A stretch of 45,585 nucleotides of DNA from an uncultured Caulobacterales bacterium (lineage in GTDB: Bacteria > Pseudomonadota > Alphaproteobacteria > Caulobacterales > Caulobacteraceae), in the NCBI GenBank assembly GCA_903858685.1, contig CAIOJR010000234.1, forward strand, positions 1 through 45,585, written 5' to 3'. The translations under genes were made by a program, and so were the position numbers. Under the pieces are notes generated by a model. The model saw only the letters and a program-made list of their open reading frames with translations, made no database searches and was not told the origin of the DNA. Below are positions 8,325-29,819 of this stretch, in pieces. How positions within the stretch are numbered: the first letter of the stretch is position 1; every line of letters begins with the position of its first letter.

Positions 8325-8338
8325 AAGTGTCAATATAT
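8325..8338 (+). promoter_or_regulatory. Shared motif AAGTGTCAATATAT upstream of sulfatase 1
   Basis: This 14-base stretch lies 64-77 bases before the start of the sulfatase at 8402. It matches 13 of 14 bases of the site at 30941-30954 (other strand) and 11 of 14 at 25646-25659. All three have the same orientation relative to the gene they precede. It is AT-rich against a GC-rich background, so an operator or promoter element is plausible. Confidence 0.4.
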
Positions 8339-8401: not shown

Positions 8402-10078
8402 ATGAAGATATGGATCTGGCTTGGCGCTGTCGTCGCCGCCCTCGCCGCCTTGCTCGGCTTGGCGGCCCTGAACCGTGAAACCCTGCTGATCTGGGTCGCG
8501 CATTCCCAGATGCCGCCGGTCGGGCCCAATCATCCGGTGACCTGGGCCCAGGGGCCTGACATAGCGACGAGCTTGAAGCGCCCGCCCAATATCGTCCTGA
8601 TCCTGGCCGACGACATGGGTTTCAACGACATTACATTCAATGGCGGCGGGATTGCGGGCGGGCTTGTGCCCACGCCCAATATCGACTCCATCGGCCATGA
8701 AGGCGTCAGCTTCGCCAATGGCTATGATGGAAACGCCACCTGTGCGCCGTCCCGCGCCACGATCATGACGGGACGCTACGCCACCCGTTTCGGCTTTGAG
8801 TTCACCCCCGCCCCGGTGGCGTTCCAGAGGATGGTGGGCACGGATCACGAGGAGAGCGACTTCGTCCTGCCGCACTTCTTCGCAGACCGGGTGAAGGACA
8901 TGCCGCCCGGCACGACAAAGGGCGCCGGCGCCATGAATAATCTGGCCGTGCCGACCAGCGAAATCATGATCGCCAAACTTCTGAAACAAAAAGGCTATCA
9001 CACAATCCATCTGGGCAAGTGGCACCTTGGCTCCTCTGCGGGCGCACGGCCGGAAGAGCGCGGCTTTGACGAAAGCCTGGGCTTCATGGCGGGCGGGGCC
9101 ATGTACCTGCCGGAACATGATCCTCAGGCGGTCAATTCCAAGCAGCCCTTCGACGCCATCGACCGCTTCCTGTGGCCCAACCTGCCCTATGCCGTGCAGT
9201 TCAACGGCTCGCCCATGTTCCAGCCCAAGGGCTACATGACCGACTATCTGACGGACGAAGCGGTCAAGGCCATCGGCGCCAATCGCAATCGGCCCTTCTT
9301 CATGTATTACGCGCCCAACGCCATCCACACGCCGCTTCAGGCGACCAAGGCCGATTACGACGCCCTGCCCCAGATCGCCGACCACCGGCTGAGGGTCTAT
9401 GGCGCCATGATGCGCAGTCTGGACCACAATGTCGGGCGACTTTTGCAGGCCCTGAAAGACCAGGGGCTGGACAAGAACACCCTGGTGATTTTCACCAGCG
9501 ACAATGGCGGGGCTGGCTATATCGGCCTGCCGGAAGTCAACAAGCCCTATCGCGGCTGGAAGGCGACCTTCTTCGAGGGCGGCATCCACTCCCCCTTCTT
9601 CATGCGCTGGCCAGGCGTGATCCCGAGCGAGGCGCGCTATCCCTATCCGGTGGGCCATGTCGATATCTTCGCCACAGCGGCGGCGGCGGCTGGCGCAGCG
9701 ATCCCCAGCGATCGCACAATGGATGGAGTGAACCTGCTGCCCTATATTTCCTGCCAGGCCAAGGGGCGGCCGCACCAGCGCCTGTTCTGGCGATCGGGCC
9801 AGTACAAGGTGGTGCTGGACGGGGACTGGAAATTACAAAGCAGCGAAGCGCAGAAAAAGGTCTGGCTCTATAATCTCAGCGCCGACCCGACCGAGCAGCA
9901 TGAGCTATCCGCCAGCCAGCCAGACCGGGTGAAGGCCATGCTCGCCATGCTCGCCGATCAGGACGCCGATAGCGTCAAGCCGCTCTGGCCCTCCCTGCTG
10001 CAAGGCCCGATTTTCATCGACCACCCGTCAAACCAGCCGCAGAAAAGGGGTCAGGACTACATCCTCTGGGACAACTGA
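8402..10078 (+). CDS. Arylsulfatase-type sulfatase, membrane-anchored or exported
   Basis: The product has 558 residues. A hydrophobic segment at 3-23 (signal peptide or anchor) places the enzyme in the periplasm. The sulfatase core follows: metal Asp70/Asp71 in LILADDMGF, the maturation motif CAPSRATIMTGR with Cys114 as the residue oxidised to formylglycine, GKWHLGS near residue 203, and FTSDNGG near 365. The enzyme should hydrolyse a sulfate ester; the substrate is unknown. Maturation needs a formylglycine-generating enzyme, and one candidate is encoded at 28713. GGGAG lies six bases before the ATG at 8402. The gene converges on an unknown exported protein, with two bases between the stops. 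A motif shared with sulfatase 2 and the GST/FGE group lies at 8325-8338. Confidence 0.9.
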   Translation: MKIWIWLGAVVAALAALLGLAALNRETLLIWVAHSQMPPVGPNHPVTWAQGPDIATSLKRPPNIVLILADDMGFNDITFNGGGIAGGLVPTPNIDSIGHEGVSFANGYDGNATCAPSRATIMTGRYATRFGFEFTPAPVAFQRMVGTDHEESDFVLPHFFADRVKDMPPGTTKGAGAMNNLAVPTSEIMIAKLLKQKGYHTIHLGKWHLGSSAGARPEERGFDESLGFMAGGAMYLPEHDPQAVNSKQPFDAIDRFLWPNLPYAVQFNGSPMFQPKGYMTDYLTDEAVKAIGANRNRPFFMYYAPNAIHTPLQATKADYDALPQIADHRLRVYGAMMRSLDHNVGRLLQALKDQGLDKNTLVIFTSDNGGAGYIGLPEVNKPYRGWKATFFEGGIHSPFFMRWPGVIPSEARYPYPVGHVDIFATAAAAAGAAIPSDRTMDGVNLLPYISCQAKGRPHQRLFWRSGQYKVVLDGDWKLQSSEAQKKVWLYNLSADPTEQHELSASQPDRVKAMLAMLADQDADSVKPLWPSLLQGPIFIDHPSNQPQKRGQDYILWDN

Positions 10079-22797: not shown

Positions 22798-23646
22798 ATG
22801 AGCCAGTCCGCAAATGCCGCCCAGATCGAATACTGGAACACCTCGGTGGGACATAGCTGGGCGCATTATCAGGAATTGCTCGATCGCCAGATCGCGCCCC
22901 TGGGACAGGCCGCCATCCGCGCGGCGGTCCCGAAGCTCGGCGAACGGGTGCTGGATGTCGGCTGTGGCTGCGGTGAAACGACCCTGGCTCTGGCCGAACA
23001 GGTCGGCGAAACTGGCCGGGTGACGGGCGTCGACATTTCGCGCCCGATGCTGGATGTGGCCGAGCGGCGCGCTGCGGCGTCGCCCCAAGCCTCATACATT
23101 GCGTTCATTGAGGCCGACGCCCAGACCGCCGATCTGGGCGCTGGCGGCTTCGACCTGATCTTCTCGCGCTTCGGCGTCATGTTCTTCGCAGACCCGACCG
23201 CGGCCTTCGCCAATTTGCGGCGCTTGCTGAAACCCGGCGGGCGACTGAGCTTTGTCTGCTGGCGGCCCTATGTCGAAAATCGGTGGATGAGCGCGCCCGC
23301 CGAGGCGGTCAGCGCCCTCTTGCCGCCCTCGCCGCCGACAGACCCGCTGGCGCCGGGCCCCTTTGCCTTCGCAGATCCGCAAAGGATCTCGACCATACTA
23401 AGCGACGCTGGCTTCAACTTGATCCAGATTGATCCACATGACCAGAATATCAGTGCAGGCGACATGGAAGCCCAGGTGACGCTGGCCTATCGGCTCGGAC
23501 CTCTGGGCAGCGCCGCCCGGGCGCATCCGGAGCTGATCGAACGGCTAGACCCGCTCGTGCGCGCTTCGCTCGAAACGTTTCGCACCGCCGAGGGCGTGCA
23601 GATGCCCGCAGCCTGCTGGATCGTGCAGGCGCGCAACCCGGCCTGA
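22798..23646 (+). CDS. Class I SAM-dependent methyltransferase
   Basis: The product is a 282-residue soluble methyltransferase. Motif I is VLDVGCGCGETTLALAEQ near residues 51-68, motif II VTGVDISRPML near 79-89, and an acidic SAM-contact segment (FIEADAQTADL) follows near 103. FDLIFSRFGVMFFADP lies near 119, and LKPGGRLSFVCWRPY near 145. The N-terminal segment QIEYWNTSVGHSWAHYQELLD is typical of UbiE/COQ5-like small-molecule methyltransferases. The substrate is unknown. CGGAG lies nine bases before the ATG. It precedes the AtuA-like gene by 125 bases on the same strand; a functional link is possible but not shown. Confidence 0.85.
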   Translation: MSQSANAAQIEYWNTSVGHSWAHYQELLDRQIAPLGQAAIRAAVPKLGERVLDVGCGCGETTLALAEQVGETGRVTGVDISRPMLDVAERRAAASPQASYIAFIEADAQTADLGAGGFDLIFSRFGVMFFADPTAAFANLRRLLKPGGRLSFVCWRPYVENRWMSAPAEAVSALLPPSPPTDPLAPGPFAFADPQRISTILSDAGFNLIQIDPHDQNISAGDMEAQVTLAYRLGPLGSAARAHPELIERLDPLVRASLETFRTAEGVQMPAACWIVQARNPA

Positions 23647-23771
23647 ACCTGAGCCTGGGACGCCGAAAGCGACCCATGACGCAGGGGCGCCGTTGCACCC
23701 AGCCCCACCCGACGCGCATTGTGGCGCACAACAATCGGCGAGACGCTGCGGGTTGAGGGAGGGATGCGATC

Positions 23772-25583
23772 ATGGCCAGAACCGTGAGGATCGGCGGGGC
23801 CGGGGGCTTTCTGGGCGACTCCTCCGTCGCGGCGCCGCAACTGCTCCGCGGCGGCCGGCTGGACTATATGATCCTGGACTATCTGGCGGAGGCGACCATG
23901 TCGTCTCTGGGCCAGCTCAAGGCCGCGCGTCCCGACCAGGGCTATGCCCGCGACTTCACCGACTGGGTCTGGAAGGACAATCTGGCGGAGTTCAAGGCGC
24001 AGCATGTGCGCATCGTCACCAATGCGGGCGGGCTAAACCCTCGCGCCTGTCGCGCCCGGATGGAAGAGATAGCGGCCGCCGCAGGGATGAGCTTCCGCAT
24101 CGCCGTCGTGGAGGGCGACGATCTGGCCGCGCGTGTGCCGGACTTCCATGCCGAGGGCGTGCGCGAGATGTTCACCGGCCAGCCCTTTCCGCCTGCGGAC
24201 AAGGTTTTCAGCGCCAACGCCTATTTTGGCGGATCCCCCATAGCTGCGGCCCTGGCGGCGGGCGCTGACGTCGTCATTACCGGCCGGGTGGTGGACTCGG
24301 CCCTGACCTTGGGCCCCCTGATGCATGAGTTCGGCTGGACAGCGCAGGACTTTGACCTGCTGTCCGCAGGGTCGCTGGCAGGCCATGTGATCGAGTGCGG
24401 CGCCCAGGCGACGGGCGGCCTGTTCACCGACTGGGAGGAGGTCCCGGACTGGGCCCATATCGGCTATCCGGTCGTGGAGTGTCACGCGGACGGCACGTTC
24501 GTTCTCACCAAACCGGAAGGCACGGGCGGCCTTGTCACACCCGCCGCCGTGGCTGAACAGATTCTCTATGAGGTCGGCGACCCTCAAGGCTACGCCCTGC
24601 CAGATGTGGTGTGCGACTTCACCCAGGTGCAGGTGGCGAGCATCGGCGAGCACCGGGTCAGGGTCAGCGGCGCGAGGGGCTATCCGCCCAGCGGCGCCTA
24701 CAAGGTCTGCGTCACCTGGGGCGACGGCGCGCGCTTCATTGGCGCCATGCCTGTGGTGGGTCGTGACGCGGCCAGAAAGGCGGCGAGGCAGGCCGAGGCG
24801 GTGCTGATCCGGATGGGCGACATGCTGCGAGAACGCAACCTGCCCCCTTTGCGAGACAGTCGTATCGAGGTGCTGGGCGCTGAATCAAGCTATGGCGCCA
24901 ATGCCCGCCCCGAGGCCCTGACCAGCCGCGAGGTCATATACCGACTGGGCGCAGAGCATGACGACCCCACGGCGCTGAACCTTCTGATGCGGGAATTCCA
25001 GTCCCCCACCACCTCGATGAGCGTCGGCACCACCGGCTGGTTTGGAGGTGCGCCCAGCATCACGCCGGTCAGTCGCGTGTTTTCGTTTCTGATCCCTCGA
25101 GAAGAGGTTCCGGCGACCATCTCGCTCACCGACCACACCACTGAGATCGGCGTGGAAGCGCCGTTGGTGACGTTTGACATGATCGCCGTCATCCGCCCTC
25201 CACAGCCGCCAATTCCCATGGGGCAAGGCGCGACGGTGCGCGTCCCGGTGATCCGTCTGGCCTGGGCGCGTTCGGGCGACAAGGGCGATGCGTTCAATAT
25301 CGGTGTGATCGCACGCAAGCCCGACTACCTGCCCTGGCTGCGCGCCGCCCTGACGCCTCAGGCTGTGCAGGCCTATTTTGCTCACGAATTTGACGGCGCT
25401 GAGTCGCCGCAGGTGCTGGTCTATGACCTGCCCGGCATGAACGCCCTGAACCTGCACCTGATCCAGTCGCTGGGCGGCGGTCAGTTCTCCAGCCTTCGTC
25501 TCGATCCTCTGGCGAAGGGCAAGGCCCAACAGCTTCTGGATATGGAGATCGAGGCGCCGGCGGCGCTTCTCAAGCCGCAATAG
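23772..25583 (+). CDS. AtuA-like (DUF1446) acyclic-terpene-utilisation family protein
   Basis: The 603-residue cytoplasmic protein starts ARTVRIGGAGGFLGDS. The N-terminal DUF1446 domain (to about residue 445) contains LDYLAEATMSSL, IVTNAGGLNPRAC and DVVITGRVVDSALTLGPL, which I recognise as AtuA hallmarks. The C-terminal ferredoxin-fold-like AtuA domain (about 475-600) contains LAWARSGDKGDAFNIGVIA. AtuA is needed for catabolism of acyclic terpenes such as citronellol and geraniol in Pseudomonas; its reaction is not clear. Here no atuC/F carboxylase is nearby, so a different branched or isoprenoid-like acid could be handled. GGAGGG lies eight bases before the ATG. The sulfatase gene follows 88 bases downstream. 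Confidence 0.85.
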   Translation: MARTVRIGGAGGFLGDSSVAAPQLLRGGRLDYMILDYLAEATMSSLGQLKAARPDQGYARDFTDWVWKDNLAEFKAQHVRIVTNAGGLNPRACRARMEEIAAAAGMSFRIAVVEGDDLAARVPDFHAEGVREMFTGQPFPPADKVFSANAYFGGSPIAAALAAGADVVITGRVVDSALTLGPLMHEFGWTAQDFDLLSAGSLAGHVIECGAQATGGLFTDWEEVPDWAHIGYPVVECHADGTFVLTKPEGTGGLVTPAAVAEQILYEVGDPQGYALPDVVCDFTQVQVASIGEHRVRVSGARGYPPSGAYKVCVTWGDGARFIGAMPVVGRDAARKAARQAEAVLIRMGDMLRERNLPPLRDSRIEVLGAESSYGANARPEALTSREVIYRLGAEHDDPTALNLLMREFQSPTTSMSVGTTGWFGGAPSITPVSRVFSFLIPREEVPATISLTDHTTEIGVEAPLVTFDMIAVIRPPQPPIPMGQGATVRVPVIRLAWARSGDKGDAFNIGVIARKPDYLPWLRAALTPQAVQAYFAHEFDGAESPQVLVYDLPGMNALNLHLIQSLGGGQFSSLRLDPLAKGKAQQLLDMEIEAPAALLKPQ

Positions 25584-25671: not shown

Positions 25672-28074
25672 ATGTCGGACAAGAAGGACGACCCGAAAGC
25701 AGGGCGCAAAGGGCTGGACCGGCGCTCCCTTCTGATCGGCGGCGGACTGGGCGCTGGCGGCGCGGCGGCTCTGGCGGCCGGCGGCGGCGCGATCAAGCAG
25801 GCGACCGCGCCATTTGTCGCGCAAAAGGCGGTCAAGGCGGGCGAGGCTCCGCAGGTCGCCCTGTCCTATACTGACAGCCATCCAGCGCTCGAAAGCGTCA
25901 GACAGGCCCCCAGGGGCGCGCCCAACATCGTGGTCATCATTCTGGACGATGTGGGCTATGCTGATCTGGGTTGCTATGGCGGCGACATCCAGACCCCGGC
26001 GATGGACGCGCTGGCGGGCAAGGGGCTGCGCTACGCAAATTTCCGCACCACCGCCATGTGCTCCTGCACGCGCGCTTCATTGCTGACCGGACTGAACCAC
26101 CATTCTGCAGGCATGGGCTGGCTGGCCGATATTGACAGCGGCTATCCAGGTTATCGCGGCGACCTGACCCGCGACGCCGCGACCATCGCCGAAGTGTTGA
26201 AGGACGCCGGATGGTCCACCTTCCTGGTCGGCAAGTGGCATGTCAATAATGTGGAGAGCAACGGCCCCGCCGGTCCATTCCACAACTGGCCGACCAATCG
26301 CGGCTTTGAGCGCGCCTATTGGTATCAGGGCCATTCGACGGACTATTTCCGCCCCGGCGCGCTCTTTGATGGACTGACCCCCGTCACCCCGCCCGAGCGC
26401 GACGACTATTATGTCACCGACGATCTGACCGATAACGCCATCCGCTTTGTGCGGACCCAGAAGGCGGCCGCGCCGGAAAAGCCGTTCTTCCTGCAACTGG
26501 CCTTTTCAGGCGCCCATTCGCCCCTGCATGCCCGGGCGCAGGATCGCGACCTCTATCAGGGCAAGTTCGACAAGGGGTGGGACGCGGTGCGGCGCGAGCG
26601 GCTGGAGCGCCAGAAGGCGCTCGGCGTGGTGGACGCATCGACCGAACTTCCGCCCCTGTCCTTCGGCGCCGATCCCTGGGACAGCCTCACCCCACAGCAG
26701 CGCAAGATCTATGCGCGCTATATGGAGGTCTATGCCGGCGTCATCACAGCCGTTGACCGCAATATAGGTCGGCTGATGACGGAACTGGACGAGATGGGCG
26801 AGCGGGACAACACGCTGGTCATGGTGTTTTCCGACAATGGCGGCTCGGCGGAGGGCACGCCGACCGGCACGCCCAACATCTTCGCCGCCGCCCTTGGGGG
26901 GGCCGTGCCGCTGGACGAGGTGGAAAAGCTTCTGCCGATCATGGGCGAGAACGGCACCTTCCCCCACTATCCGATTGGCTGGACCAACGCCTCCAACACG
27001 CCTTACCGGCTCTATAAACAGTACACCAATCTGGGCGGGGTGGCCGACCCCCTGATCGTGTCCTGGCCCAAACGGATCGCCGAGCATGGCGCGGTCCGCA
27101 AACAGTTCGTCCATGTGGTGGACCTGTTTCCGACGCTTCTGGAGGCGGCCGGCGTCCAGCGCCCCGCCACCTATCAGGGTCGACCGCAAAAGCCGCTGGA
27201 AGGCGCCAGCGCCCTGTCCACCTTCGGCTCTCCCGCCGCGCCCACCCGGACCGAGCAATATTACGAGCTGGGCGGCTTTCGCGCCTATCAGGACGGAAAC
27301 TGGCGGCTGGTCGCAGTCCACAAGCGTGGCCAGACCTTCGAGACCGACCACTGGGCGCTCTTCGACACCAGGACAGATCCGACCGAACTGCATGATGTGT
27401 CCGACAAGCATCCCGAGATCGCCAAGGCCATTTTGAGCAAGTGGTTCGCCGCCGCTGCGAAGTATGATGTCCTGCCGCTCGACGACCGCAATCTCGTGAT
27501 CAAGATGATGCAGCAGCGCATGCGCAACATGCGTCCGCACTGGGCGTTCCGCCCGCCGGTCGACGTCATCGCCAATGATGTCGCCCCGTTTGTCTGCGGT
27601 CAGGACCATGTGATCGACGTGGAATTTGACCGACCGGCGAACGTCCGCGACGGGGTTCTGGTCAGCCACGGCTCGGCCCCCGCAGGCTACACCCTCTATC
27701 TGAAGAACGGACGGCTCTATTATGAATCGAGCATGATCCCGTGGCGGGACGTGATCGACGCCGGTCCCTTGCCCTCAGGCCGGGTCAAGGTGCGCTATCA
27801 GCAAAAGATGAAGGTGCGGCCGTTCGAGGGCTCCGGCCTCATCTTCGTCAATGGCGAACAGCGCGCGGAGCACGTGTTCGCCAAGGTGATCGCCACCGCA
27901 AGCTATGACGGATTCGCCATCGGCTCGGACCCCGGCAATCAGGTGTCGACGGCCTATCATGGCGCCAATCCCTATCCGGCCGCCATACATCATGTGACCA
28001 TAGACGTGCAGGCGCACCCGCCGACCGTGCAGGAGACCCTGCGCTTCATGCGTCAGATGAAAATCAATGTCTGA
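25672..28074 (+). CDS. Large Tat-type arylsulfatase with altered maturation motif
   Basis: The 800-residue sulfatase has a twin-arginine signal (GLDRRSLLIGGG near 14-25 and an Ala/Gly-rich core to about 40), so it should reach the periplasm folded. The catalytic core has Asp92/Asp93 (ILDDVGYADLGCYGG), GKWHVNN near 186 and VFSDNGGSAEG near 385. The maturation motif is CSCTRASLLTG: Cys130 is in the formylglycine position and Arg134 is present, but the usual Pro at 132 is Cys. The core runs to about residue 620 and is followed by a beta-rich C-terminal domain typical of 780-residue AtsA/AtsD-like enzymes. GGAGG lies six bases before the ATG. The substrate is unknown; nearby genes suggest a sulfated alcohol. 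It converges on the tetR gene. Confidence 0.9.
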   Translation: MSDKKDDPKAGRKGLDRRSLLIGGGLGAGGAAALAAGGGAIKQATAPFVAQKAVKAGEAPQVALSYTDSHPALESVRQAPRGAPNIVVIILDDVGYADLGCYGGDIQTPAMDALAGKGLRYANFRTTAMCSCTRASLLTGLNHHSAGMGWLADIDSGYPGYRGDLTRDAATIAEVLKDAGWSTFLVGKWHVNNVESNGPAGPFHNWPTNRGFERAYWYQGHSTDYFRPGALFDGLTPVTPPERDDYYVTDDLTDNAIRFVRTQKAAAPEKPFFLQLAFSGAHSPLHARAQDRDLYQGKFDKGWDAVRRERLERQKALGVVDASTELPPLSFGADPWDSLTPQQRKIYARYMEVYAGVITAVDRNIGRLMTELDEMGERDNTLVMVFSDNGGSAEGTPTGTPNIFAAALGGAVPLDEVEKLLPIMGENGTFPHYPIGWTNASNTPYRLYKQYTNLGGVADPLIVSWPKRIAEHGAVRKQFVHVVDLFPTLLEAAGVQRPATYQGRPQKPLEGASALSTFGSPAAPTRTEQYYELGGFRAYQDGNWRLVAVHKRGQTFETDHWALFDTRTDPTELHDVSDKHPEIAKAILSKWFAAAAKYDVLPLDDRNLVIKMMQQRMRNMRPHWAFRPPVDVIANDVAPFVCGQDHVIDVEFDRPANVRDGVLVSHGSAPAGYTLYLKNGRLYYESSMIPWRDVIDAGPLPSGRVKVRYQQKMKVRPFEGSGLIFVNGEQRAEHVFAKVIATASYDGFAIGSDPGNQVSTAYHGANPYPAAIHHVTIDVQAHPPTVQETLRFMRQMKINV

Positions 28075-28098: not shown

Positions 28099-28698
28099 TC
28101 AGCGGATCAGAGCGGCGACGGTCGATCGGACCACCTGACGGGCCCGATCGGCTGAAAGCCTCTGGTCCAACCGCAGCCTGATCCAGCTGTCGACGCTCAT
28201 GACCAGATCCAGCGCCTCAACAAGATCAGGATCCAGATTATCGGGCAGCACGCCCGTCAGCACGCCGCGCAGCGTCCTGACCAGCATGTCATTTTGCTGT
28301 TGCAGCACCTCAGACCGGTGGCGGTGCATGGTCCCTGCGCGACGATAGGGCATGATCTGATCAAACAGATCCGCCCGCCGATCGATCAGGCTGAAGAGGC
28401 GTTCCCGCCAGTTCTCCCCCGCCAAGGGCGCAGCGGCGGTAGCGCGAAGACGGGTCTCGATTTCTTCGCCGATCTCCTGCCGAAGTCCCTCCATGTCCTT
28501 GAAATGACGAAAGACGCTGCGAAGGCCAACCTGGGCGCGGTCGGCGACGGCCTCAGCGCTCGGCTCCAGATCGCCCGCCGCCACCAGCTCCAACAGGGCC
28601 GCGATGATGCGACGGCGACTGCCCTCCGACCTCAGGCGGCGACCATCGGGGCGCTCGTCTGTCTCAGGCGAGGAGGGCGCATTGACTGGTGCGGACAT
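28099..28698 (-). CDS. TetR-family transcriptional regulator
   Basis: The product is 199 residues. The N-terminal helix-turn-helix spans about residues 22-70 (GSRRRIIAALLELVAAGDLE, AVADRAQVGLRSVFRHFKD), and the C-terminal ligand-binding and dimer domain is helical with few conserved residues. TetR proteins are usually repressors released by a small ligand, often a substrate of the nearby pathway. GAGGGAG lies about nine bases before the ATG at 28698. The gene is the last of the minus-strand group GST-FGE-tetR and lies 14 bases after the FGE stop. A candidate operator shared by three nearby or related promoters is at 30941-30954; the link to this regulator is inference. Confidence 0.85.
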   Translation of the reverse strand: MSAPVNAPSSPETDERPDGRRLRSEGSRRRIIAALLELVAAGDLEPSAEAVADRAQVGLRSVFRHFKDMEGLRQEIGEEIETRLRATAAAPLAGENWRERLFSLIDRRADLFDQIMPYRRAGTMHRHRSEVLQQQNDMLVRTLRGVLTGVLPDNLDPDLVEALDLVMSVDSWIRLRLDQRLSADRARQVVRSTVAALIR

Positions 28699-28712
28699 TA
28701 TGAACAGCTCCC

Positions 28713-29819
28713 TCACCGGCGTCCGGCATTTGGCTTCACCAGCCCACGAAAGACCGTCCTGAAACCAATATGCGAAGCCCCTCCATCGGGAGGGCCGTCT
28801 GTTCGCGCCGCTGGTCTATAGCGATAACAATATTCGTCCGAACACAAGAACGAGCCGCCCTTTATCACGTGGCGCGCAATATTGTGATGAGCGGGATCAA
28901 GACTGGCGATTTCAGGCGTCCCGCCCTGCGCTACACCCGCGCCGGGACCTGCTGGATCAAACAGATCAGTGGTCCACTGCCAGACATTGCCCGCCATGTC
29001 ATAGAGCCCATAGCCGTTGGGCGCGAAACAGCCCACGGGCGAGGGGCCGGCCTTGAAGCCGTCGCGTCCGGCGTCCTCCACCGGGAAGACCCCCTGCCAC
29101 GTATTGGCGCGGGGCTGGCTCTGGCCGGGCGGGTCGTCGCCCCACACATAACGCTTGTCCGACAGCCCCCCACGGGCGGCATATTCCCACTCCGCCTCGC
29201 TGGGCAGGTCGCGACCCAGCCAATGGGCGTAGGCGAGCGCATCCTCATAAGCGACATGAACAACGGGAAAGGCGCCCAGTCCTTCAATCGTGGAGTCAGG
29301 GCCCCAAGGGTGTCGCCAGTTTGCACCGGGCATGACCCGCCACCACTGGCTGGGATCATTCAGATCAACCCTGCCCTTCGCGCCGACAAAGACAAGCGAT
29401 GCGGGACGGCGCTGTTCCTGGGTCAGGCCAGGATATTTCACCCCGTCCAGAGGCCGCTCAGCCAGGGTGCGATAACCCGTCGCCGTGACGAAACGGGCGA
29501 ACTGAGCGTTGGTGACATCGGTCGGATCGATCCAGAAGCCCGCCACCCGCACGCTGTGGGCCGGCCCCTCCTCCGGTCTCACCGGAACCGCGCCCATATT
29601 GAAGCGCGCGCCGCGAATATGGACCATGCCCAGGGTCGGTCGCGCGGGATCGGGCATGACCGGCACGCCACGCAGGCAGGATGTGCGCGAAGGAGCAGGC
29701 CTTTGCACCGCCTGGCGACTGCACGCGCCCAGCAGCAGCCCACCCAGCGTCAGGGCGACCACGACCCGAAGGGCCGCCGCCAGGGCGCTGGTGCGGCGAT
29801 CAGTTTGACGATTTATCAC
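28713..29819 (-). CDS. Formylglycine-generating enzyme family protein with lipoprotein signal
   Basis: The 368-residue protein has a lipoprotein signal (VVVALTLGGLLLGAC) with lipobox Cys33, so it should be membrane-anchored outside the cytoplasm. The SUMF1/FGE domain runs from about residue 60 to the end: GARFNMGAVPVRPEEGP, FWIDPTDVTNAQFARFV, LPSEAEWEYAARGG, NGYGLYDMAGNVWQW and GGSFLCSDEYCYRYRPAA. The last motif holds Cys326 and Cys331, spaced exactly as the copper-binding catalytic pair of true FGE (Cys336/Cys341 in the human enzyme), so oxidation of a sulfatase Cys to formylglycine is likely. Bacterial FGE is normally cytoplasmic; the export signal is unusual. Start is a GTG at 29819 with GGAG five bases upstream. 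It lies between the GST-like gene and tetR. Confidence 0.88.
   Translation of the reverse strand: MINRQTDRRTSALAAALRVVVALTLGGLLLGACSRQAVQRPAPSRTSCLRGVPVMPDPARPTLGMVHIRGARFNMGAVPVRPEEGPAHSVRVAGFWIDPTDVTNAQFARFVTATGYRTLAERPLDGVKYPGLTQEQRRPASLVFVGAKGRVDLNDPSQWWRVMPGANWRHPWGPDSTIEGLGAFPVVHVAYEDALAYAHWLGRDLPSEAEWEYAARGGLSDKRYVWGDDPPGQSQPRANTWQGVFPVEDAGRDGFKAGPSPVGCFAPNGYGLYDMAGNVWQWTTDLFDPAGPGAGVAQGGTPEIASLDPAHHNIARHVIKGGSFLCSDEYCYRYRPAARTDGPPDGGASHIGFRTVFRGLVKPNAGRR

Follow-up and report, generated by a model that had tools for sequence, protein, structure and literature searches.

Human formylglycine-generating enzyme (FGE), the SUMF1 product of the ER lumen, is similar to the lipoprotein-type FGE described here (lipo-FGE) in its catalytic Cys pair and its fold (Z 36.7). 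According to PMC7279497 and PMC4505483, the human enzyme works in an oxidising compartment and contains structural disulfides as well as an N-terminal extension with Cys, features that lipo-FGE is proposed to share. It differs in carrying an ER signal where lipo-FGE has a bacterial lipobox, and in Cys positions that are other than C48 and C264. The FGEs of Streptomyces coelicolor and Thermomonospora curvata contain the same catalytic pair and FGE core as lipo-FGE, and neither is known to have an export signal. They differ in location, as prokaryotic FGE is said to reside in the cytosol in the 2015 study of Holder et al., which asks how enzymes this similar can work in both reducing and oxidising compartments (PMC4505483). 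Signal-less FGEs of Caulobacteraceae (contig C155; L116-L135; L139-L147) belong to the same family and keep the Cys pair, whereas they have no signal, carry free Cys, lack C264 and nearly all contain a CC motif. PvdO, a periplasmic FGE-fold enzyme of pyoverdine maturation, is matched weakly by lipo-FGE (58.4 bits against a cut-off of 500). The T9SS proteins PorK/GldK likewise present an FGE fold on a lipoprotein, and lipo-FGE scores 110.8 bits with their NCBIfam equivalog model, below the cut-off of 350; according to PMC12421860 the catalytic Cys are absent from these proteins, whereas lipo-FGE has the pair. No description of an exported bacterial FGE was found in searches of the open-licence PMC literature, and the location proposed for lipo-FGE is, as far as could be found, new for bacteria.

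Identification of the FGE gene

The following features belong to the FGE gene in the window, which is the whole stretch of 45,585 nucleotides that was analysed.

28713..29819, minus strand: lipoprotein-type FGE, 368 aa with a GTG start, identified by Pfam and solved relatives
28827..28844, minus strand: catalytic motif C326-SDEY-C331 in the block GGSFLC-SDEY-C, aligned with the FGE pair
29721..29738, minus strand: lipobox LLLGAC, residues 28-33, with C33 as the predicted lipidated Cys; position conserved in relatives
29676..29678, minus strand: tail cysteine C48, candidate disulfide partner, invariant in the 11 rows of alignment A1
29028..29030, minus strand: C264, candidate partner of C48

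The stop-to-stop frame of the gene has no start codon earlier than the GTG (the first start is at index 14), which is preceded at a distance of 4 bases by CGGAGT, in agreement with AGGAGG at 4 of 6 positions. An alternative GTG at 29762, which is also located before the lipobox, has an equal ribosome-site match (4/6). A start downstream of the lipobox, held by the original prediction to be at odds with a lipoprotein, was examined as well, and the three such starts that we tested match only 3, 2 and 3 of 6 positions.

The FGE-sulfatase domain (PF03781) matches residues 64-356 with 259.9 bits and covers positions 4-254 of the 255 in the profile, and the best solved relatives by sequence are the human, T. 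curvata and S. coelicolor FGEs. The catalytic pair of FGE is matched in the alignment by C326 and C331, the Cys pair to which the original prediction had pointed. The C-x4-C pair is found in all of the family relatives picked by score (29 of 29); its invariance in the 106-row alignment A2 is no test, because those rows were chosen by the Cys-pair motif. The AlphaFold2 model built from the 106 rows reaches pLDDT 88.4, superseding a model from 11 sequences (48.6), and it superimposes on human FGE (1y1j) with Z 36.7 and rmsd 2.1 over 267 residues. Judged by sequence and predicted fold, the protein is an FGE.

The lipobox and its distribution

The N-terminus of lipo-FGE contains a hydrophobic stretch ending in LLLGA, directly followed by CSR. 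The lipobox named in the original prediction thus follows a hydrophobic segment, and it is kept in relatives. The lipoprotein signal was judged by pattern, hydropathy and reading, and on this basis the presence of an export and lipidation signal is supported.

By score, lipo-FGE was assigned in 47 of 199 Caulobacteraceae genomes, 40 of them at E 1e-114 or better and 7 with weaker, borderline matches that are partly split into pieces. Reading of the N-terminus in each of the 47, the source genome included, showed a lipobox in 46, imperfect in G080 (LQGAC) and G053 (VCAC). The exception, G105, has no lipobox, and its upstream frame looks broken. In this locus (L020) and in L047 from Caulobacter sp. 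BP25, the FGE domain is intact while the signal region lies upstream out of frame, so that either the gene is broken or the sequence contains an error.

Among the loci of named genomes (best 80 of 402), the family belongs to Caulobacteraceae, chiefly Caulobacter and Phenylobacterium, with further members in Sphingomonadales, Hyphomonadaceae and Zavarzinia; those of Zavarzinia have a Sec-type signal without lipobox. Besides, a membrane segment is present at the N-terminus of two Undibacterium FGEs, and eight FGEs from cyanobacteria carry Sec-type signals. The latter (L096, L103, L104, L105, L107, L109, L110, L112) each have a sulfatase gene within the stretch examined, as well as a tail Cys and C96 in place of C264. 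In a class-level survey, 7 of 385 genomes (the source genome and six others) had matches at E 1e-85 or better, a cut-off at which weaker exported forms would be missed. Five of the six others were parsed: three loci (L260, L264, L265) show a hydrophobic N-terminus and C264 with no clear lipobox, L261 has a Zavarzinia-type signal, and L262 is readable only in its C-terminal part.

A strict rule requiring both lipobox and hydrophobic stretch assigns a lipoprotein signal to 54 of 70 rows with C264, compared with 0 of 37 rows without it (cyanobacteria excluded). Ten of the 16 rows with C264 that the rule missed have a lipobox by eye and fall below the hydropathy threshold; the others are the broken L020, L081 (cut), L082 (Sec signal), L091 (imperfect box), and L101 and L114 (membrane segment).

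Exported-type FGEs without lipobox occur in at least nine further genomes of the family (G052, G056, G064, G070, G085, G090, G127, G141, G145), the FGE N-termini of the 152 genomes outside the lipo-FGE set having been read in part only. These nine proteins contain a hydrophobic N-terminus, the Cys pair, the tail Cys and C264, and a Sec-type sulfatase gene lies near each of them, with the motif CSPTR in eight cases and CGPTR in G052. No sulfatase of the type at 8402 (see below) was found in these nine genomes at E 1e-100. Their loci (L266-L273 from G070, G141, G145, G064, G056, G085, G090 and G127, and L274 from G052) keep C-x4-C with an altered NFR or RYR motif tail, and a motif filter requiring RYR after the Cys pair left them out together with G015 and G030. 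FGE-domain proteins of the last two genomes (L284 and L283, respectively) have a hydrophobic N-terminus and C-x4-C, and neither the tail Cys nor C264. Export is therefore not confined to lipoproteins, nor is the Cys pattern described next universal.

Cysteine pattern and phylogeny

For the cysteine count, 115 FGE rows were chosen by motif with the window copy left out, 3 of them without readable tail, and they were classed by N-terminal hydropathy alone, not by C264. All 76 rows with a hydrophobic N-terminus have a tail Cys no more than 34 residues from the domain and none has a CC motif; C264 is present in 68 of them, the other 8 being cyanobacterial. Of the 36 rows without hydrophobic N-terminus, C264 is missing in all but the broken L020 (35 rows), and CC occurs in 34. 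Outside the catalytic pair, a single core Cys is found in 69 of the 70 rows that have C264 and in 8 of 8 cyanobacterial rows (C96), while the other 37 rows have 2-6 (L137 and L138 among these have a truncated N-terminus). Few free Cys together with a pair between tail and body would be favoured in an oxidising compartment. The co-occurrence of C48 and C264 suggests that a disulfide between them probably stabilises lipo-FGE.

In the phylogenetic tree, the signal-less FGEs form one side of a branch with support 100/99. On this tree, an origin of the exported FGEs by scattered, independent gains found no support. Since the lipoprotein rows are one lineage, their shared Cys pair counts as few events. 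When the human and T. curvata FGEs are added, the signal-less rows stay apart (99/96) and the exported group taken alone is weak (52/7). Both the human FGE, an ER enzyme, and the T. curvata FGE fall on the exported side, so the side of the tree alone is no predictor of location.

An anchored sulfatase as the proposed client

8402..10078, plus strand: anchored Sec-type sulfatase (MKIWIWLGAVVAALAALLGLAAL..., motif CAPSR), the proposed client; a longer ORF starts at 8327

This type of anchored sulfatase is present in 70 of 199 family genomes at E 1e-100 or better. It occurs in 46 of the 47 genomes with lipo-FGE versus 24 of the 152 others (Fisher p 4e-26, indicative only, as the genomes are related), and G143 is the one with lipo-FGE and no anchored sulfatase at this threshold. 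The Sec sulfatase to which the original prediction had pointed is thus a conserved partner of lipo-FGE. The two genes share a contig in 35 of 47 genomes and lie within 10 kb in 33; in 20 they are on the same strand within 500 bp, with the sulfatase upstream in 18 of these. In the window they are 18.6 kb apart on opposite strands, and the Tat sulfatase described below is nearer.

In 32 of the 47 genomes, no FGE domain other than that of lipo-FGE reaches E 1e-30 (lipo-only genomes). Eight of these (G095, G125, G129, G133, G166, G169, G184, G189) contain a single sulfatase at E 1e-25 or better, which in every case is the anchored CAPSR type, located 0-45 bp from lipo-FGE. The anaerobic maturase (anSME, TIGR03942) was over its cut-off in none of 33 genomes, with sub-threshold matches in 7. 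From these gene associations, the anchored CAPSR sulfatase emerges as the best-supported candidate client of lipo-FGE.

Proposed mechanism

We propose, with a probability of about 0.74, that lipo-FGE is an exported, lipidated and periplasm-facing enzyme which matures Sec-exported anchored sulfatases of the CAPSR type, here the one at 8402. The enzyme, with its active site intact, would leave the cytoplasm through Sec, receive its lipid on C33 and stay in the envelope on the periplasmic side, where a disulfide from the tail (C48) to the body (C264) would probably stabilise it. The motif Cys of the N-terminally anchored CAPSR sulfatase would be converted to formylglycine after translocation and before folding, a timing that can be likened to that of the ER enzyme of animals. 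The catalytic pair, the lipobox, the Cys fingerprint, the gene pairing and the genomes with one FGE and one sulfatase are read directly from sequence; from them we infer the actual location, the disulfide, copper loading in the periplasm, the substrate and the timing. Against this reading speak the lack of an anchored sulfatase in G143 at the threshold used, the larger distance of lipo-FGE from the Sec than from the Tat sulfatase in the window, the single lineage of the lipoprotein rows, the FGEs of G030 and G015 that deviate from the Cys pattern, the place of the human and T. curvata FGEs on the exported side of the tree, and the signal-less and RR-type sulfatases of the lipo-only genomes described below.

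As the first alternative, lipo-FGE might act in both compartments or in the cytosol, with the pre-lipoprotein or a form from an internal start modifying sulfatases before export and the lipid anchor mattering little. An in-frame ATG at 29657 (residue 55) would yield such a signal-less form, although its ribosome site is weak (3/6) and no matching Met occurs in the other 10 rows of A1. This alternative also draws on the sulfatase content of the lipo-only genomes. The expectation that these genomes are free of signal-less Cys sulfatases failed, because a signal-less CxPxR sulfatase occurs in at least 14 of the 32 (G006, G039, G053, G059, G080, G089, G110, G139, G143, G153, G178, G187, G195 and G198, the start being unsure in G198), a lower bound from 62 rows (one misparsed) plus further rows among 113 matches. 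Such sulfatases may be left unmodified, be modified by lipo-FGE before export, or be served by another maturase. Against action in the cytosol, the Cys pattern (no CC, few free Cys, and C264 together with the tail Cys) suits an oxidising compartment, and we regard this alternative as unlikely.

Several other sulfatases were observed in the lipo-only genomes. Two genomes (G102, G107) have an RR-type sulfatase. Signal-less CTPSR sulfatases (L184, L185, L188, L189, L211, L221, L224, L234) are found in genomes without a visible cytosolic FGE, where no anaerobic maturase was over the cut-off. Besides, sulfatase homologues without a signal, most of them around 750 aa long, carry CSTTR with Thr for Pro in 12 lipo-only genomes (L157, L159, L163, L179, L180, L186, L199, L206, L214, L218, L223, L229), and these may not be formylglycine enzymes.

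The neighbouring Tat sulfatase and the gene slot

25672..28074, plus strand: Tat-type sulfatase (DRRSLLIGG, motif CSCTR)
28099..28716, minus strand: TetR-type regulator, adjoining the FGE gene downstream with a 4-base overlap; syntenic in L256 and L257
29878..30909, minus strand: glutathione-S-transferase-like gene, upstream of the FGE gene, marking the syntenic slot

The original prediction described the FGE as encoded beside a sulfatase. A sulfatase gene is indeed nearby (25672-28074), but it is on the other strand and the TetR-type gene, whose match of 23.3 bits is just under the Pfam cut-off of 24, lies in between.

The DRRSLL motif is kept in all close orthologues of the Tat sulfatase with readable N-terminus (11 of 11, the window copy itself counted). 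CSCTR, with Cys for the Pro of CxPxR, is present in 11 of 12 readable close orthologues (the window; L137-L145; L149), while L146 and the Sphingomonas loci L090, L094 and L095 contain CSPTR instead. Orthologues at 59% identity or more were found in 13 genomes, 9 of which have an FGE of a third lineage 15-843 bp away, signal-less wherever its start is readable. Two congeners (G020, G045) share the gene order of the window, namely three genes, sensor kinase, Tat sulfatase, TetR, FGE, GST, ADH and onward. In that slot both carry a third-lineage FGE (about 65% identity to this lineage) instead of the lipo-FGE of the window; the start of the third-lineage gene gives no signal in G045 and is ambiguous in G020, as the frame continues upstream. 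In G045, lipo-FGE is found elsewhere, 77 bp from the anchored sulfatase. It appears from this synteny that lipo-FGE displaced the third-lineage FGE from the slot by the Tat sulfatase in the source genome. The window also has two genes at 22798-25583 (22798-23646 and an AtuA-type gene) between the kinase and the Tat sulfatase, for which no match was found at that spot in the two congeners.

A second FGE of cytoplasmic type, which the original prediction suggested looking for, was found in the source genome: a signal-less FGE with intact Cys pair on contig C155. Of the three sulfatases in this genome, two are in the window and one of RR type with CTPSR is on contig C127, and none lies beside the C155 FGE. 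Elsewhere, signal-less FGEs adjoin signal-less sulfatases (L116, L117, L126, L127) but also Sec-type ones (L123, L125, L133). L003 (G000, contig C217) is not a sulfatase FGE: by reading, a methyltransferase-like part comes after an EgtB/OvsA-like FGE-fold part in its 718 aa.

The shared order in G020 and G045 with a third-lineage FGE in the slot would suit a second alternative, that lipo-FGE took over the Tat sulfatase at 25672 in place of the signal-less-type FGE, as would the three Sphingomonas loci (L090, L094, L095), where the lipo-FGE gene is convergent with the Tat sulfatase gene. However, these Sphingomonas clusters also keep a signal-less FGE, and the source genome retains both its signal-less FGE on C155 and the anchored sulfatase at 8402. 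Moreover, a Tat substrate should be folded before export, which speaks against this takeover, and we consider it improbable. That lipo-FGE is an FGE-fold lipoprotein with another job, as in PorK/GldK (structural) or PvdO (pyoverdine maturation), is very improbable. In its favour, PorK is a lipoprotein with this fold, and the GldK and PvdO models match, below their own cut-offs. Against it, the catalytic Cys pair is kept in every relative picked by score, PorK is without the two Cys (PMC12421860), and co-occurrence with the CAPSR sulfatase is near-complete.

Division of labour

The original prediction further proposed that a membrane-anchored FGE would serve Sec-exported sulfatases and leave folded Tat substrates to others. 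One part of this stands, since the Tat orthologues are usually near a signal-less-type FGE of the third lineage (9/13) and the 8402 type pairs with lipo-FGE. The other part does not hold strictly, as the window has lipo-FGE in the slot beside the Tat sulfatase and signal-less CxPxR sulfatases are present in the lipo-only genomes counted above. With these points weighed, we lean towards the wider view that bacteria have a distinct extracytoplasmic FGE branch, which uses a lipid anchor in Caulobacteraceae and Sec or membrane anchoring in other groups and would make formylglycine after Sec translocation, with signal-less FGEs serving cytosolic and Tat sulfatases and exported ones serving Sec sulfatases.

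Implications

If the proposed location is true, bacteria would offer a natural example of FGE in an oxidising compartment. Copper is handled in the periplasm, and a copper enzyme would thus be placed where its metal is handled. The Caulobacter strains that have a single FGE and a single sulfatase would provide a clean test, and an exported FGE may serve protein labelling in the periplasm. For these bacteria, formylglycine could be made after Sec export, and sulfatase maturation would be compartmentalised in bacteria.
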